IMG/VR virus record: IMGVR_UViG_3300044701_000268
Span: 1-23,123 of that record
From: a virus
Strand: one strand, 5' to 3'
Length of the DNA stretch: 23,123 nt
This document shows, one piece after another, positions 1,469-9,659 of the stretch. Positions within the stretch are counted from its first letter, which is position 1. Each line of letters begins with the position of its first letter. The translations under genes and the position numbers were made by a program. The notes under the pieces were generated by a model that saw only the letters and a program-made list of their open reading frames with translations, did not search any database and had not been told where the DNA came from.

Positions 1469-1535
1469 AGTTATCCACAGATTCCTGTGGATAACTCAAA
1501 AGCTACGCAAAACGTATCCATAAATCTGTGGATAA
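1469..1535. repeat. DnaA-box cluster with perfect inverted pair
   Basis: Perfect DnaA boxes are at 1471-1479 (TTATCCACA) and, in reverse, at 1486-1494 and 1527-1535 (TGTGGATAA). The first two form a perfect inverted repeat with 12-base arms (AGTTATCCACAG at 1469-1480 and CTGTGGATAACT at 1485-1496) around a 4-base loop ATTC. Two partial copies (TGTCCACAG) lie just to the left at 1449-1457 and 1463-1470. Confidence 0.8.
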
Positions 1536-2060: not shown

Positions 2061-2412
2061 TCAAGTACTCCTTAATAATTTCAAACCCTTCCGCTGCCGA
2101 TCTGGCGACCGTGCAGAGGTATCCCCTGTTGTTTAATTGCAACTGCAAAGCCTTCTGCTCTTTGCTCTGCTGCCCTGTGGCCGTCTTCATCTCCACAAAC
2201 AGCCCGTGGAACCCTCCACAAGCCTCTAGGACGCACAGATCAGGCATTCCAGCCAGTACCCCCTCACCATGCAGCCTAACGCGCTCTGAGGCCGTTCTAT
2301 CGCCTCCATTCGGTATCGCCGCAATGATGGCATCCGGATAAAACGCTCTGACCCGCTGCACCAGTTTGACCTGCTCAGTGTGTTCGATGCTCTTTCTCAG
2401 TCTTGCCACCAT
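2029..2412 (-). CDS. VRR-NUC family nuclease
   Basis: VRR-NUC proteins are PD-(D/E)XK nucleases, small stand-alone versions of which are structure-specific or resolvase-like and common in phage replication modules. With the start at ATG 2412 the protein has 127 residues. Visible are IPNGGDR and GVLAGMPDL (Asp58), then FVEMK (Glu74, Lys76) and the following Gln-rich helix, the full catalytic arrangement. The chosen start overlaps the upstream gene by 16 bp; the frame is open further but that segment is out-of-frame coding of the neighbour. It probably processes branched DNA made in replication or packaging. Confidence 0.85.
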   Translation of the reverse strand: MVARLRKSIEHTEQVKLVQRVRAFYPDAIIAAIPNGGDRTASERVRLHGEGVLAGMPDLCVLEACGGFHGLFVEMKTATGQQSKEQKALQLQLNNRGYLCTVARSAAEGFEIIKEYLNGEKLIGRDC

Positions 2413-2744
2413 GCATCGGATTCTACCGACGCTGGCTGGGCTGTTGCCTTGCAATACAAATGGCAGCGGTGCTTGAGATCCATGGGCATTGTGGCCATGC
2501 CAGTTGCTTGGCACTGCCATTCCTTCCATGTCACTGTCGCCCAGCCGTTCCTGACCTTGGCGCTGTCAAACATCCATTGCAGCGGCACTGCGTTGACCTT
2601 GCGGTGCTTTTCCATCTGCGCCGCTGGCATCGACTGCCTGCAATCCACGTTTACCGCATTAGCGCAGTTTTGGCACAAAACGCGGTCATCCTCGACCCAT
2701 TTTGCAGCCTGTGGATAACCTGTGGATAACTCTGAAATCATCAT
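2397..2744 (-). CDS. Cys-rich putative zinc-binding phage protein (115 aa)
   Basis: Starts at ATG 2744 (or the adjacent ATG 2741) with AGGGG about eight bases upstream. Cysteines occur as CQNC (24-27), Cys35, Cys78 and RCHLYC (94-98), an arrangement suited to one or two zinc sites. The segment MPMDLKHRC is a pattern I recognise from small phage proteins of unknown role. Codons 5-12 are built from two tandem DnaA boxes, so the 5' end of the gene is also part of the candidate origin. It sits between the origin and the VRR-NUC gene. No activity can be assigned. Confidence 0.7.
   Translation of the reverse strand: MMISELSTGYPQAAKWVEDDRVLCQNCANAVNVDCRQSMPAAQMEKHRKVNAVPLQWMFDSAKVRNGWATVTWKEWQCQATGMATMPMDLKHRCHLYCKATAQPASVESDAWWQD
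2709..2730 (-). repeat. Tandem DnaA boxes, period 11
   Basis: CTGTGGATAAC occurs twice in direct tandem (2709-2719 and 2720-2730). On the minus strand these are TTATCCACA boxes and they encode part of the N-terminus (STGYPQ) of the Cys-rich protein. Confidence 0.8.
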
Positions 2745-2784
2745 CAATTTACCCCTTAAAAATCTGTATACCTTATGAGTATTC

Positions 2785-2965
2785 CTAATCCGGTAGACCC
2801 CAAAGGAATTTACCGCCTTACCGGATTAGCCCCAGAACCATGCATTTGTCCGAGACTGGCCTGTGGATAAGTGGGGCAAATAGCCCCCACTTCATCCCCA
2901 GACCCAGCCATTGTCTAATCCGGTATACCGCATTACTACCGCATTACTACCGGATTACCGGATTA
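2785..2965. repeat. Iterons, consensus TACCG(G/C)ATTA
   Basis: Copies: 2786-2795 (reverse), 2811-2820 (variant TACCGCCTTA), 2819-2828, 2916-2925 (reverse), 2926-2935, 2937-2946, 2948-2957 and 2956-2965. The copies at 2926, 2937 and 2948 are spaced by 11 bases, and the last follows after 8. Reverse copy 2916-2925 and forward copy 2926-2935 abut to form the palindrome GGTATACC. Confidence 0.85.
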
Positions 2966-5107
2966 GCCCAACTGCACCCAACCACTGGCACTTGGTGCAA
3001 CCCCAAACCGCTGGAATATGGCGGAGCCAACAGCCTTTCTGGCGTAGGACTGGTCGGCCTGCGGCACCGCCTGATAGACCTCTGCCCACTCCAATTGGTA
3101 GGCATTGGCGAGTTCTTTTGGCACGTTTGGGCGACCTGGCCCTTTACGCATGATGACGTTGCGGTGCTGGTTGATCAGGGTCTGGATGAAGTTGCAGGCG
3201 GCATCGGCGGCATCAGTGATCTGCTGCTGGCGCTTGTCCTCTTGTTTAGAGGCGTTGAGTTGTTTGCGGTCTGCCTCACTGGAGGCCATCGGGATGGCGA
3301 TGCGGCACAGCATGGTCTGCGGCTCGCCGTACTGGTCGATCACGATTTCAGGGAATAGCTGACTGTCGAACCTGATTTCCCTGAAATCCGGCTCGTAGCG
3401 GGTTTTGGTCAGTTTCATGTAGCGGGTGTTGTCCTCGTCCATGAACAGGATGCCAGTCAGGGTGGCATCACCTGTGAAGGCACTGGCGCCACGGGCCATG
3501 GCATCTGAGTCTTGGCGGGAGATGGTCTTGTTGGTGTGGGTCAGGATGGAGATGGGCGTGTGCAGTTGGACGTAGATGGTCTGCTTGAGGGCTGCGAGGT
3601 AGCTGCCGACCTCGGAGTTGTCGTTCTCATTGTCAATGGCCATGGTGCTGTTGGCCGTGTCCAAGACCAGATGTGGACGGATGTTGTTGACCGTGTGGCG
3701 CATGACGTTGTGGGCCAGGGTCAAGAGGTCTTTGACATCCGAGCGCTTGGCGTCGATGACCACGAACCAGTTGAGCAATTCCATGGGGTCGATGTGAAAG
3801 TGCTTGGAATAGGCAAACAGGGTGCGGGTGATCTGGTCTGAGTCCTCTGTGACGAATATGGTCTTTCGGCGGGTTTTGGAAGTCAGTGGTGCATCACCAA
3901 TCTGAAACCCTGCCATGACCATGCAGGTGGCGATCATGGCGGTGGTCTTGCCCACTCCTGGCTGCCCTGCCAAGACAAAGAAGGAATGCGCCCAAAAGCC
4001 TTGGATCAGGTAGTCGATGGGCTTGAGGCTGCTGATGTCGAGCGTGAGTTCTGGCCAGCCTTGCAGGGCGTTCAATGGCAGTGGCTCATCCGGTGAGCCT
4101 GTCGCAACAGGTACTGGATTCAATATGTTTTGGAAGTCTTCCACGGCTGATTTGCGCTCAGTGGCTTTGGTGGGGGACTCCCAGCCGTTCTGTTTGGCCG
4201 TGTGAAACAGCGTGCCGAGGGTCACGCCTTTGCCTTGGTGAAAGGACTTCCAGTGGGTGTCGATGTCCTTGTCGCCTGCGTACTTGGAGCCAGATGATGA
4301 CCACTGCTGCCACAGGTCTTTGCCTTGGCCGCCAAAAGCCGTGTGGAGCGCTTGGCCCAGTTCAATCCACTGCGGATATTCAATATCAGGGCTGATGAAC
4401 TGGAGTGCATTGGCCGCACGGGCGTAATCGTCTTGAGGCTTGAGGATGGGGCTGAAGTCGATGGGGGCTTGAGGTGTGGGTGCTGGCTGATTCAGTTGGT
4501 GCTGCTCGATGATGCCCCACTCGGACAGCAAGGCATGCAGGTCATCCACCTCGATCAGGTCGCCCGTGAGTTGGCTGCCACTGAGCAGCACTGACTTGCC
4601 TGCGCTGTTGTCGAGGCCAAAGACCTCGACCTCTTGGCCTGCTGCCAGCTTGTACTTGGGCAGGATGTTCTCGGCCGTTTTGGCGAGCAAGAAGATGTGG
4701 CGGCCTTTGCCGGAGACTGAAATCTCGGTCAGGGCTTGGTTGGCCTTGACCCACCGAGCCATCTTGGTGATGGCCATGTTGGTGGTGGTCTGGCTGTGCT
4801 TGAGGTCAACATCCAGCACCACCAAGTGGCCCTTGCCTGGGATGGCTGCGGCCTTTTGTAGCACCAGGCCGAAATACTGGCCGTGAGGCATGGCCTCCAT
4901 GGCCCAAACGTCTTCGGTGGTGAACAGGTTATCGGCTGGGGTATCACGGGCCACACCCATGGAGCCGTCACGTTTGTGGGGGATCTTCTTGGAGCCGTCA
5001 AGGCTGAAGGTGCAGAAGCTAGCAGCTTGGTAGGCGTTGCCTAGCTTGAGAGCAATGGCTTGGGACTGGTCGAATGTTGATCGGTGTTGATCAGGTAAAA
5101 TACTCAT
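2963..5107 (-). CDS. Replicative primase-helicase (AEP primase, PriCT-2, RecA-type ATPase)
   Basis: A 714-residue protein starting MSILPDQHRSTF; the start at 5107 has AGGAG nine bases upstream, and the longer frame to 5161 crosses a hairpin. The N-terminal part has the archaeo-eukaryotic primase signature: HLVVLDVDL (Asp99, Asp101), SVSGKGRH (131-137) and EVEVFG. Residues about 235-305 match the PriCT-2 linker (WIELGQALHTAFGG to DTHWKSFH). The C-terminal part is a RepA/AAA_25-like ATPase with Walker A GQPGVGKT (381-388) and Walker B-like HLVLDTANS. Such proteins synthesise primers and unwind DNA at the fork, and some bind origin iterons. The iteron array lies immediately after its stop. Confidence 0.85.
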   Translation of the reverse strand: MSILPDQHRSTFDQSQAIALKLGNAYQAASFCTFSLDGSKKIPHKRDGSMGVARDTPADNLFTTEDVWAMEAMPHGQYFGLVLQKAAAIPGKGHLVVLDVDLKHSQTTTNMAITKMARWVKANQALTEISVSGKGRHIFLLAKTAENILPKYKLAAGQEVEVFGLDNSAGKSVLLSGSQLTGDLIEVDDLHALLSEWGIIEQHQLNQPAPTPQAPIDFSPILKPQDDYARAANALQFISPDIEYPQWIELGQALHTAFGGQGKDLWQQWSSSGSKYAGDKDIDTHWKSFHQGKGVTLGTLFHTAKQNGWESPTKATERKSAVEDFQNILNPVPVATGSPDEPLPLNALQGWPELTLDISSLKPIDYLIQGFWAHSFFVLAGQPGVGKTTAMIATCMVMAGFQIGDAPLTSKTRRKTIFVTEDSDQITRTLFAYSKHFHIDPMELLNWFVVIDAKRSDVKDLLTLAHNVMRHTVNNIRPHLVLDTANSTMAIDNENDNSEVGSYLAALKQTIYVQLHTPISILTHTNKTISRQDSDAMARGASAFTGDATLTGILFMDEDNTRYMKLTKTRYEPDFREIRFDSQLFPEIVIDQYGEPQTMLCRIAIPMASSEADRKQLNASKQEDKRQQQITDAADAACNFIQTLINQHRNVIMRKGPGRPNVPKELANAYQLEWAEVYQAVPQADQSYARKAVGSAIFQRFGVAPSASGWVQLG

Positions 5108-5140
5108 CGCAAACTTCTCCTTGATTTTCTTTGCAAATTC

Positions 5141-5177
5141 CCCCGGCATGATTCGCGTCATGCCGGGGTTTTCTTTT
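5141..5177 (+). terminator. Intrinsic terminator-like hairpin facing the plus direction
   Basis: Perfect 11-base arms CCCCGGCATGA (5141-5151) and TCATGCCGGGG (5158-5168) around TTCGCG, followed by TTTTCTTTT (5169-5177). The T-run exists only in the plus orientation, while the genes on both sides read leftward. It lies in the 84-base gap between the C5 methyltransferase and the primase-helicase. Confidence 0.7.
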
Positions 5178-5191
5178 GGGGAATGGGGATT

Positions 5192-6553
5192 CTAGTCTTG
5201 GGGTTTGAGATGGTCAGCAATTCTTTGACCGATCCACCTGACGTTTGGCACAGCCCATGAGTTGCCCAGCGCCTTGTAGCGTGGGCCGTCTGGCGCTTCT
5301 GGCTTTTTACGCCAAGGGATGTTGGTGTAGTTGTCAGGGAAGCCTTGCAAGCGTTCGCATTCGACAGGTGTCAGGCGGCGCACTTGCATACCTACTAAAT
5401 GTGACGCAGCCTTTTTTTCATCGTTGTAATCAAACCCAAATCCAGCGGTAATTGTTTGTGCGGTTTCTGCAAAAGTCATCGGCTGCATGAGAACATTCTC
5501 CCCGCCATTGTTACGGCCTTGGGCAAAGGCAATGTCCGACACGCATGGGTCTTGTGTGCCGTGGACAACCATTGGCTGCGCCACCAGATCAGTGGCATCT
5601 TTGTAGTCTCTGGCCTTCATGGCGCTCGCCGTGCCATCAATTGAATACTCACCAAAGGCCACCATGCGTGCGGCCACTGGCTGCGGCGCAAGATACGCAC
5701 CACGCTGGCTAAAGATTTCTTGATTGCTAGAGCCGACACCGCCGCTGCCTTTGGCTGATTGGTTCAGGGTTGGGTGTGGGTAGTCTCCATCCCAATGGCT
5801 GCGACTGACAACCATTGCCTCTGCTTCTATTCTTTCGTTGCCTGTGCGACTGACCGCAGCGCCTGTTCTAGCGCCACTGGCAACTGCTTGCCCCTTTTCT
5901 CTGCTCGGCGCAGTATCCCTGCGCACGCCGTCGAACTCAAAAAGAACCGCTGCGGGATCAAAGTCTGCTCTAGCACTTGCGACAACGAACACACGGCGGC
6001 GTCGTTGGGCCACTCCGAAATATTGGGCGTCGAGGACTCGCCACGCGACTGCTCTTTGGGGGCCATACACACAACCAGCGTTTGTCCATTTCTCCCCTGA
6101 CGGGATGATCGGCTCATCTTCCCCGGCAAGTGCTCCAAGAAAGCAGCCGAATGCGTTGTCTTTGGTGGAGAGGACTCCGGGGACGTTTTCCCAGAAGATG
6201 ATTGCTGGAGAAGCTGATCGAACAGTTCGAACATGGTCAATTGCATTTGCGATACCTACAAAAGTGAGGGAAAGATTGCCCCTTGCGTCATCAAGGGAGT
6301 TGCGCAGGCCAGCCACTGAAAAGGCTTGGCAGGGTGTGCCACCGCAAAACAGGTCAGGCGCTTCGACCTCACCAGACAGGATGCGTTCAGGCAGTGTGGT
6401 CATGTCCCCAAGGTTGGGGACATCGGGGTAGTGGTGAGCCAGCACCGCTGACGGGAATGGCTCAATCTCTGACAGCCATGCGGCCTTCCAGCCCAGTGGT
6501 TGCCATGCGACAGATGCGGCCTCAATGCCGGAACAAACTGATCCGAATCTCAT
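5192..6553 (-). CDS. dcm: DNA (cytosine-5) methyltransferase
   Basis: Transfers a methyl group from SAM to C5 of cytosine in DNA, probably protecting phage DNA from host restriction. Motifs appear in the classical order: I, FGSVCSGIEAA (3-13); IV, FCGGTPCQAFS with catalytic Cys75; VI, WENVPGV (Glu122); VIII, QRRRRVFVV (183-191); IX, RRLTPVECERLQGFP; X, GNSWAVPNV near the C-terminus. The stretch of about 190-390 between VIII and IX is the target-recognition region and carries Ser/Gly-rich segments. At 453 residues it is normal length or slightly long. Its ATG overlaps the stop of the DUF2800 nuclease (6550-6553). No partner endonuclease is seen, so it looks like an orphan modification enzyme. 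Confidence 0.92.
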   Translation of the reverse strand: MRFGSVCSGIEAASVAWQPLGWKAAWLSEIEPFPSAVLAHHYPDVPNLGDMTTLPERILSGEVEAPDLFCGGTPCQAFSVAGLRNSLDDARGNLSLTFVGIANAIDHVRTVRSASPAIIFWENVPGVLSTKDNAFGCFLGALAGEDEPIIPSGEKWTNAGCVYGPQRAVAWRVLDAQYFGVAQRRRRVFVVASARADFDPAAVLFEFDGVRRDTAPSREKGQAVASGARTGAAVSRTGNERIEAEAMVVSRSHWDGDYPHPTLNQSAKGSGGVGSSNQEIFSQRGAYLAPQPVAARMVAFGEYSIDGTASAMKARDYKDATDLVAQPMVVHGTQDPCVSDIAFAQGRNNGGENVLMQPMTFAETAQTITAGFGFDYNDEKKAASHLVGMQVRRLTPVECERLQGFPDNYTNIPWRKKPEAPDGPRYKALGNSWAVPNVRWIGQRIADHLKPQD

Positions 6554-7575: not shown

Positions 7576-8433
7576 TTACTCCATTTCAAAAAGTTCGCAA
7601 GATTCAGAACAGCCGCCATCGGCGTAAAGGTCAAGCTGCGTTGGCGCTCGGGCCGCCAAGTCTTTGTGCTTCAACGCCATCAATCTAAAAGTCTTGATGG
7701 ATGTGCGTCCACGGAAAAACACACGGTCTGGTGCGTCTTGGTATTTGGCAAACTCTGGGCCTACACGTGGATACTTGTCTTCCATTCGCTCAAAAAAGTC
7801 AAACTGCGATGGATCTTCGTCATGCAAGCGCATCAGCTTGGACAGGCTTTTCTTCCAACAGGTTTTGCAGTTGCCCTGATGCTCTTCCAGTTGGAGATCA
7901 AACGGTTGGTCCTCCCACCAGTCCAGCACATCTTGCTTGTCGGCTGGGAACCAGTGCACCAGCGGGTAAACCACGTTGCGGGTTTTGTCATCTTTTACCC
8001 GGCGCTGTTCATCAGTCCTGATGCCGATGGCCAAGTCGTAATCCCTGCCAGCCCAGCCAATGGATTTGAGATAGGACTCAATCGGATATCTTTTTAGGTT
8101 GCGCGTGCAGTGAGGGCTTTGAGTATTGGAGATGCCGTACTTCTGAATCATCTGCTCAAACGGTTCACCAGCCCGGCTGGCTGATTCAAAAGTCACCACC
8201 CGGTGGCTCATGCCTTGACCATGCTCTGGGTTTGTCACGCCTTCCAGCCACACCGTGTTAAATCCAAAATGTGTATCGCAGTCGTGGACGAACTGGAGCG
8301 TGGCCTCGTTCTCAAAACCGGTGTTGGCAAAAATGACTTTGATGTCGTATTCGTGGGCCTTGGTGTCAAGAATTTTTCTGGTCATGTAGCCAGAGGTGCG
8401 GCCACCACTAAATGAAATGACAAGTTGTTTCAT
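7576..8433 (-). CDS. PAPS-reductase-like PP-loop protein
   Basis: The family uses a PP-loop to bind adenylylated substrates. Residues 7-17 (SFSGGRTSGYM) form the PP-loop. Further family features are PHCTRNLKR (Cys109), CKTC (189-192) and a C-terminal GGCSESCE (Cys275, Cys279); this set could hold a metal or iron-sulfur cluster. The start at ATG 8433 has AGGA six bases upstream and lies 8 bases after the helicase stop; 285 residues result. Members occur often in aquatic phages labelled as CysH-like, but true sulfate reduction is doubtful. The setting between nuclease, helicase and methyltransferases suggests nucleic-acid modification, which is inference. Confidence 0.8.
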   Translation of the reverse strand: MKQLVISFSGGRTSGYMTRKILDTKAHEYDIKVIFANTGFENEATLQFVHDCDTHFGFNTVWLEGVTNPEHGQGMSHRVVTFESASRAGEPFEQMIQKYGISNTQSPHCTRNLKRYPIESYLKSIGWAGRDYDLAIGIRTDEQRRVKDDKTRNVVYPLVHWFPADKQDVLDWWEDQPFDLQLEEHQGNCKTCWKKSLSKLMRLHDEDPSQFDFFERMEDKYPRVGPEFAKYQDAPDRVFFRGRTSIKTFRLMALKHKDLAARAPTQLDLYADGGCSESCELFEME

Positions 8434-8441
8434 GCGCTTCC

Positions 8442-9659
8442 TCAAATAATCTGATTAATGATGTTCTGCTTGGCGAGGATCTTGGACAGCACCGTGTGAT
8501 CCAGTGATGCCCTGATCGTCAGGATGTAGATCATCGGCTTCACACCGTGCTTGGCGATGTTCTCCACACGGCTGGATGCCTGCTCCAACGCACTGGTGGA
8601 CCATGTGCATTCGACAAACACGATGGTGTCAGCGGCACTCAGGTCCACGCCTTCACTCATGGCCGCGATGTTGCCAACGATGCACTTGGCCTTGCCGGAT
8701 TGGAATGCCTCGATGGCCTTGTCACGCTGTGCGCGTGGGGTGTCGCCAACCACGGTGACGGGCTTGTGGACGCGCAACTCGTCGCAGAGTTTGCCGACCA
8801 CATCCTTGTGGTGCGCAAAGACCACGACAGGCTCGCCAGCGTTCAAGAGGTCGTCAATGAATTCAGCAGCGGCATCCACCTTGCGCATCCCTGCTTCTTT
8901 CATGATCTCGGCCAAGCCCTCAAAGGCCAGCAAGGCGTTGGGGTTGGCGACCAAGGCATCGGCATCAAACTGCTGCTCCCGCTTGTCGTTGGGCAGGTCA
9001 AAGGTGATCAGCGACACTTGCGGGTCTTGGTAGTCTTTGAACACATCCTCTTTTTTTCTGCGCATGACATGGGGCTTCATGAGCGCCTTGAGTTCGGCGA
9101 TGTTGCTGGAGCCTGAGACATCCAAGCCCCATGGCGCTTTCCACATCTTGGCGTAGCGTGCTGCAAAGTCGTACCAGCCGCCACGGTAGATGCCTAGGCC
9201 GTGCAAGATGGGCCAGAGTTCGATGGGCCTGTTGGGGATGGGCGTGCCAGATAGGGCATACACACGCTCAATCTGCTTCATGAGCAGGGAAACGGATGTG
9301 GTGCGCTTGGCCATTGGGTTTTTGACCCGGTGGCACTCGTCAAGCACAAGTGTCTGGTAGCCAGCGTTGTTGAAGTATTGCAGCAGGTCGTAGTTGATGA
9401 TGACAACCTGGTGGTCGGTGGTCTTCATCGCATCATTCTTGCCGTTGACCACCCGCACAGTGGCGTTGGACAGCTTGTTGAATGCAGCCTCCCACACGGT
9501 CTTGGCGATGGCTGGGCAGACGATCAGGGCAGGGAGATGTTCAAGGGCTGCGGCTGCTGTGGGCAGCGTCTTGCCGACTCGCGGCTGGTCGGCCAGGATG
9601 GCCCTCTTGGTGTCCAGCAAGAACTGCTTGGACGTTTCTTGGTGCGGGTATAGCTTCAT
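8442..9659 (-). CDS. SNF2-type DEAD/H-box helicase (superfamily 2)
   Basis: A compact 405-residue ATPase/translocase. Motif I is LADQPRVGKT (22-31, where cellular SNF2 proteins usually have DEMGLGKT), motif II DECH (107-110), motif III ALSGTP (135-140), and the second RecA lobe has VVVFAHHKD, a GxxAMSEGVDL motif V and QASSRVENI as motif VI. The start is the ATG at 9659, forming an ATGA with the methyltransferase-like stop; an ATG four codons upstream is less likely. The protein is short, without extra DNA-binding domains, like other phage members, which act in replication fork remodelling or recombination. Confidence 0.88.
   Translation of the reverse strand: MKLYPHQETSKQFLLDTKRAILADQPRVGKTLPTAAAALEHLPALIVCPAIAKTVWEAAFNKLSNATVRVVNGKNDAMKTTDHQVVIINYDLLQYFNNAGYQTLVLDECHRVKNPMAKRTTSVSLLMKQIERVYALSGTPIPNRPIELWPILHGLGIYRGGWYDFAARYAKMWKAPWGLDVSGSSNIAELKALMKPHVMRRKKEDVFKDYQDPQVSLITFDLPNDKREQQFDADALVANPNALLAFEGLAEIMKEAGMRKVDAAAEFIDDLLNAGEPVVVFAHHKDVVGKLCDELRVHKPVTVVGDTPRAQRDKAIEAFQSGKAKCIVGNIAAMSEGVDLSAADTIVFVECTWSTSALEQASSRVENIAKHGVKPMIYILTIRASLDHTVLSKILAKQNIINQII

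Follow-up and report, generated by a model that had tools for sequence, protein, structure and literature searches.

The window analysed here, a linear virus record of 23,123 bases from a freshwater phage, carries a primase-helicase gene on the minus strand and, directly behind it, an array of 10-bp repeats that extends into the next conserved gene, ORF116. The features of the locus, together with a second cluster of DnaA boxes, are the following.

2963..5161, minus strand: primase-helicase of 732 aa, the proposed initiator, with an AEP/Prim-Pol-like N-terminus (weak), PriCT-2, a RecA-like AAA_25 helicase and a C-terminal DNA-binding domain
2966..3229, minus strand: C-terminal domain (residues 645-732), the proposed origin-recognition domain; predicted winged helix that covaries with repeat class
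3128..3142, minus strand: AT-hook-like GPGRP loop (residues 674-678); GPGRP accompanies T at site position 4 (T4), GSGRP accompanies A4
3008..3049, minus strand: putative recognition helix (residues 705-718, SYARKAVGSAIFQR region) from predicted secondary structure; its type correlates with the base at position 9 of the site
2916..2965, no strand: iteron module 1, five 10-bp sites, direct at 2956, 2948, 2937 and 2926 and inverted at 2916
2869..2892, no strand: central hairpin or inverted repeat, AAGTGGGG-N8-CCCCACTT, between modules 1 and 2
2862..2870, minus strand: perfect DnaA box abutting the central hairpin, found in 66 of 69 loci
2786..2828, no strand: iteron module 2, which lies 137 bp from module 1 and has a site at 2819, a degenerate one at 2811 and an inverted one at 2786
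2726..2770, no strand: AT-rich stretch (73% AT), candidate unwinding element and second highest 45-mer AT peak in the window
2710..2729, minus strand: two perfect DnaA boxes, 11 bp apart, inside the 5' coding part of ORF116
2652..2661, plus strand: lone iteron within ORF116, changing with class in most relatives
2397..2747, minus strand: ORF116, without a family match, conserved downstream of the array
1469..1496, no strand: palindrome of the second DnaA cluster, GTTATCCACAG-N4-CTGTGGATAAC, with 11-bp arms; A-site-like, hairpin z -6.5

The repeat TACCG(G/C)ATTA occurs in eight exact copies, with starts at 2652(+), 2786(-), 2819(+), 2916(-), 2926(+), 2937(+), 2948(+) and 2956(+), and is confined to 2652-2965 on both strands of the window; under uniform base counts, about 0.09 copies would be expected by chance per 23 kb, both strands included. 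A ninth, degenerate copy (TACCGCCTTA) starts at 2811. Because the orientation is mixed (six plus, two minus), the array is no simple tandem and instead consists of two modules bounded by inverted repeats, within which tandem copies are spaced by 11, 11 and 8 bp. Measured from the primase stop codon, which is included in the iteron at 2956, the sites fall at +0, +8, +19, +30, +40 (inverted), +137, +145, +170 (inverted) and +304 (in ORF116). The three perfect DnaA boxes (TGTGGATAA), starting at 2710, 2721 and 2862, all lie on one strand. Thus assembled, the locus displays clustered repeats, helical-turn-like spacing, an adjoining initiator gene, DnaA boxes and an AT-rich region, all of them features of iteron-type origins. 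The central hairpin has a folding z of about -4; its sequence varies among relatives, yet a hairpin is retained in repeat classes C, D and F (see below). A terminator reading of this hairpin was rejected, given that no T-run follows it and a terminator scan gave no match there; an Rfam search returned zero matches.

An earlier note on this stretch of DNA had reported the eight repeat copies and three same-orientation perfect DnaA boxes, and this core observation held. Its further description held in part: the interval 2709-2966 leaves out the copy at 2652; "several at 11-bp spacing" does not cover the 8-bp step or the mixed orientation; and the claim that the element is not explained by coding applies only to 2748-2955, because the primase stop codon falls within the iteron at 2956 and ORF116 covers both the copy at 2652 and two of the boxes (2710 and 2721). 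The hairpin at 2869-2892, the AT-rich stretch at 2726-2770 and the DnaA-box cluster at 1461-1535 had been missed.

Pfam searches with the primase-helicase identified PriCT_2 (1.3e-20) and AAA_25 (6.5e-15), with weak matches to DnaB_C and KaiC. Both main domains are present in 34 of 34 aligned members, and no SF3 or Toprim model is listed by Pfam for any of the 34. The PHROG matches are to DNA primase. The only Prim-Pol match in Pfam (E 0.13) falls below the cutoff, and DVD and GRH motifs are visible in the N-terminus, which is therefore likely, and no more than likely, to be an AEP primase. The protein has a PriCT-2 by the primase domain and a helicase domain of the RecA/RepA/DnaB type, which are two of the marks of PrimPol-PV1-like enzymes; the third, an AEP catalytic domain, rests on the sub-threshold match and the two motifs. 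An AF2 model of the last 135 residues (pLDDT 87.7) consists of a beta hairpin, a long helix, a strand, a helix-turn-helix and a final strand; the reading of this domain as a winged helix is a prediction that rests on predicted secondary structure alone. Foldseek against the PDB gave no match for the domain, a PDB search by sequence yielded nothing usable and Pfam nothing credible, and the single strong match in a viral fold library was to a member of the same family. The model of the full-length protein was poor (pLDDT 69) and too weak for use. A search of plasmids with the primase-helicase produced only partial matches of at most 43% identity, mostly to the PriCT-2 region. In one relative (L016:6001-8139), the primase domain itself looks swapped: the N-terminal ~300 residues are 27-46% identical to the window and the rest 76-100%.

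Relatives were gathered by protein and DNA scans, supplemented with one annotated phage record (MW202879), which resulted in 267 loci with the C-terminal domain, many of them overlapping. The check proposed in the earlier note, a search for the same repeat beside the homologous primase gene, was positive, with the repeat sequence varying by class: an array is found in 96 of 96 distinct relatives that have the domain and whose sequence continues for 110 bp or more past the gene. Reciprocally, the domain is encoded in 241 of 245 loci showing the array pattern; in the other four, the array lies at the sequence edge. Three relatives came from the genome collection, one of them nearly full length and in a MAG contig. 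An array-bearing relative (L121) lies within a MAG contig labelled Acidimicrobium, which might be a misbinned phage contig. The domain scan, of which the best 80 loci were kept, brought to notice neither a satellite nor a stand-alone domain protein that had the domain or the array. The relatives fall into about seven repeat classes, given here as 10-mers.

Class A: TAAT[CG]CGGTA
Class B: TAAA[CG]CGGTA
Class C: TAAT[GA]CGGAA
Class D: TCGACCGGAC
Class E: TCGGAGGGAC (degenerate)
Class F: TCGGAGATAC (degenerate)
Class G, class-A-like: TAATACGGTA/TAATCCGGTT

Despite these differences in sequence, the geometry is conserved. Module 2 begins 136-137 bp past module 1 (~13 helical turns) in every class examined, and the offsets 0, 8, 19, 30 and 40(-), followed by 0, 8 and 33(-) from +136/137, remain constant, with exceptions of a few bases in D/E and F. 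One class B locus (L214:3330-3373) has an enlarged array, with a 22-mer repeated twice in tandem. ORF116 is 83-92% identical among close relatives.

The repeat class varies in step with the tail of the primase-helicase. On a tree of the C-terminal ~90 residues, the class label changes 6 times, which is the minimum, compared to 14 times on the helicase tree and 28 times on that of the N-terminus; the trees of the neighbouring genes require 11 (ORF116) and 24 (VRR-Nuc) changes. Of the 732 residues, 16 are fixed differently among classes A, B and C, and all of these lie within 634-731. In the 88 classifiable loci, the GPGRP loop goes with T4 in 44 of 44 cases and GSGRP with A4 in 44 of 44, whereas the type of the putative recognition helix matches position 9, GYI helices occurring with A9 (29 loci) and SYA/SYS helices with T9 (59 loci), without exceptions. 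Consistently, residues 600-732 separate the classes most, whereas N-terminal segments are up to 100% identical across classes. For example, a class A and a class D protein (L011 and L012) are ~98-100% identical over most of their length up to residue 600 and 44-48% identical thereafter, whereas the window and L016, which share the array class, are 27-46% identical over the first 300 residues and ~80% at the end. Every other gene tested resembles that of the window to roughly the same degree, whether the relative is of class A or D/E.

It should be noted that the C-terminal domain adjoins the array physically, within 300 bp. With no gap between the end of the domain and the start of the array, the two can be transferred together, which accounts for some of the covariation; such transfer does occur, as the number of label changes falls with nearness to the array (28, 14, 6). 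Linkage nevertheless poorly explains several observations. Classes D and E differ in their sites within one background: between L012 (D) and L013 (E), all eight listed sites differ, whereas the 69 bp inter-module spacer is identical, and the proteins, compared over residues 560-732, differ only after ~636, including S/G and R/K in the helix. A weak point of this pair is that the D/E changes are only modestly enriched in the sites (23/79, versus 26/181 in the rest of the intergenic region; p = 0.009). Linkage also fits poorly with the loop-base rule, which is common to the A and C lineages, and with the two modules and the in-gene site changing together at unaltered spacing. Because the repeats vary in step with its tail, it is most likely the primase-helicase itself that recognises the start site. 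The proposal in the earlier note of a self-encoded initiator that binds the iterons is, accordingly, supported by sequence comparison, in the absence of binding data.

Analysis of nucleotide skew points to the same place. The minimum of the detrended cumulative GC skew lies 14-377 bp inside the 3' end of the primase gene in 12 of 12 genomes or fragments and is still less than 650 bp away after masking of the array plus 400 bp of the primase gene. The skew at codon position 3 is higher in the primase gene than in the left flank in all 12 genomes, if only marginally in G018, and the coding direction in the window is equal on both sides of the array. The 12 genomes are related and hence not independent, and the minimum suggests an origin without proving one.

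The array also involves DnaA boxes in most relatives: at least one exact box is present at the array in 67 of 69 loci, which suggests help from host DnaA. The exceptions are two loci of the D/E class, which have no exact box at the array but retain the second cluster. Thus, the use of host DnaA, also proposed in the earlier note, is plausible and makes DnaA a probable helper at the origin; this is an inference without binding data and is weaker than the initiator part. The second cluster, behind the terminase small subunit gene, spans 1461-1535, with further boxes at 1461 and 1527 beside the palindrome, which is reminiscent of the hairpin at the A-site of the ABC primosome (PMC6127211). Nearby, at 1271-1315, AT content reaches its highest value for any 45-mer in the window. 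In classes A-E and G, the cluster boxes are conserved at a distance of 1.43-1.7 kb from the primase stop, and class F lacks them; the cluster could possibly be an accessory part of the origin.

Sequence comparison thus shows a conserved location and geometry, covariation between sites and domain, and a GC-skew minimum at the array. We consider it likely that 2652-2965 is the replication origin of the phage, bound by the predicted winged-helix tail of its own PriCT-2/RecA-type primase-helicase; this is inferred from these comparisons, without assays of binding or origin function, and unwinding, priming, the help of DnaA and the use of a host polymerase are likewise inferences. According to the mechanism we propose, the primase-helicase would use its C-terminal domain of ~90 residues, including the AT-hook-like GPGRP loop, to bind the 10-bp sites. 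Initiator molecules on both modules, which are 136-137 bp apart and flank the hairpin and a DnaA box, would bend or pair the modules, and the duplex would open at the hairpin and at the AT-rich stretch beside module 2. The helicase would then load itself in place, and the primase part would synthesize the first primers, while host DnaA on its boxes may aid opening or bring in host DnaB to serve the opposite strand. Extension of the primers would fall to a host polymerase; no DNA polymerase gene is evident, as judged by eye, among the ORFs of the complete-looking relative G003.

Three alternatives merit consideration. The array could be an operator through which the primase-helicase or another factor regulates ORF116 and the genes behind it, without a role in the start of replication. 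Its position between two co-directional genes and its extension into the 5' end of ORF116 would fit, and many iteron systems also autoregulate. However, a consensus scan, the only promoter search made, detected no sigma-70-like promoter in 2650-3050, sites are also found over the primase stop codon and within ORF116, the GC skew switches at the array in 12 of 12 genomes, and two modules with a 136-137 bp gap and a hairpin exceed what an operator needs, so that we regard this possibility as very unlikely. Less remote, although still unlikely, is that replication starts at the DnaA cluster (1.25-1.55 kb) instead, with the iteron array as a separate regulator, enhancer or copy-control site. The conservation of the cluster boxes in classes A-E and G, the top AT peak at 1271 and the hairpin z of -6.5 speak for this option. 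Against it, the cluster is missing in class F, every genome has its skew minimum by the end of the primase gene and not 1.2 kb off, and an origin dependent on host DnaA only would leave unexplained why the iterons switch with the helicase tail.

Finally, another phage protein could bind the repeats, be it the terminase small subunit at a packaging site, a ribbon-helix-helix protein, an HTH protein or ORF116, with the link to the C-terminal domain being mere linkage. The proximity of the domain (<300 bp) and the ORF116 tree, which needs fairly few label changes (11), are compatible with this view, whereas the residue-base rules and the D/E pair are hard to obtain by linkage alone, and the HTH protein shows ~70% identity in both A and D/E. 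The packaging-site candidate was rejected because the terminase small subunit does not follow the class (window versus L013, class E, 90%; window versus L006, class A, 57%), and the ribbon-helix-helix protein because its gene was found in only 2 of 16 tabulated relatives. A different binder therefore appears very improbable, and we retain the origin recognised by the primase-helicase as the preferred explanation.

The likeness to the P4 alpha system suggested in the earlier note holds for the logic and fails for membership. P4 alpha unites in a single polypeptide a Toprim-type primase, a helicase and, at the C-terminus, a winged helix by which the repeats of the origin are bound (PMC4234260); its helicase belongs to SF3. 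As in P4 alpha and its ori/crr, primase, helicase and a proposed repeat-binding tail are joined in one protein here, but the primase part consists of PriCT-2 and probably an AEP domain, and the helicase is RecA-like (AAA_25), with neither SF3 nor Toprim. In contrast to P4, the array is located directly behind the gene, with a hairpin and DnaA boxes, and the element is a full tailed phage. The oriV of the IncQ plasmid RSF1010 combines iterons and hairpin priming sites with the RepA helicase and a dedicated primase (PMC4234260), a likeness in iterons, hairpin, helicase and primase; there, however, RepA, RepB' and RepC are separate and the iterons are 20 bp long, whereas the phage has a single polypeptide and 10-bp sites in two modules bounded by inverted repeats. 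In the archaeal plasmid pRN1 (ORF904) and Bordetella phage BIP-1, a PrimPol-helicase-winged-helix protein has its (proposed) origin directly downstream of its own gene, with a stem-loop of variable sequence and conserved structure, specific motifs not having been identified (PMC4234260). The position of the origin and a hairpin structure that outlasts its sequence are shared with our phage, whereas the SF3 helicase, the large stem-loop and the lack of iterons are not. The PrimQH family of PrimPol-PV1 primases combines AEP, PriCT, a RepA/DnaB-type helicase and a winged helix that might recognise origins (PMC5862659), but no origin sequences are matched to winged helices in the sections of that paper bearing on the question. 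In PLE satellites, the RepA_N domain switches jointly with the repeats of the origin, the remainder of the initiator being conserved, as tested experimentally (PMC8263062). Co-switching of initiator and origin is hence already known; the PLE differ in the RepA_N domain, the ~30-bp semi-palindromic iterons and in being satellites with two specificity groups. By analogy, the present system would work like P4 alpha or RSF1010 and is neither, and no compared system matches all of its features. The literature searched, which mostly did not extend to subscription papers, contained no account of this origin.

For most tailed phages, it is not known where replication starts. In the present case, sequence comparison of ~100 phages alone yields a likely origin, together with its probable initiator, the domain proposed for recognition and rules linking residues to bases, so that origin specificity and its evolution become directly testable. 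The match between array and domain provides origin-sequence evidence for the suggestion that winged helices of PrimPol-helicases recognise origins (PMC5862659) and parallels the tested PLE case (PMC8263062) in apparently ordinary tailed phages. A bolder reading, which we offer tentatively and with the balance tilted slightly against it, is that primase, RecA-type helicase and origin recognition reside in a single phage protein whose recognition module forms a swappable cassette with the origin, with at least six specificities at fixed geometry and a residue-to-base code (residue 675 to base 4, helix 704-711 to base 9). On this reading, the diversification might have been driven by satellites, co-infecting relatives or defences that target origins.

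Several observations concern the phage genomes at large. Two relatives, G003 (37.3 kb) and G004 (35.5 kb), to which loci L129-L132 belong, look like complete genomes, circular or permuted, because their ends are identical over 91 bp and 127 bp, respectively. The cytosine methylase gene (5192-6553) and the PAPS-reductase-like gene (7576-8445) look accessory, since both are absent from most tabulated relatives. The terminase small subunit (1578-2060) is mosaic: its identity is 90-98% to some distant relatives and 52-62% to some that are close.
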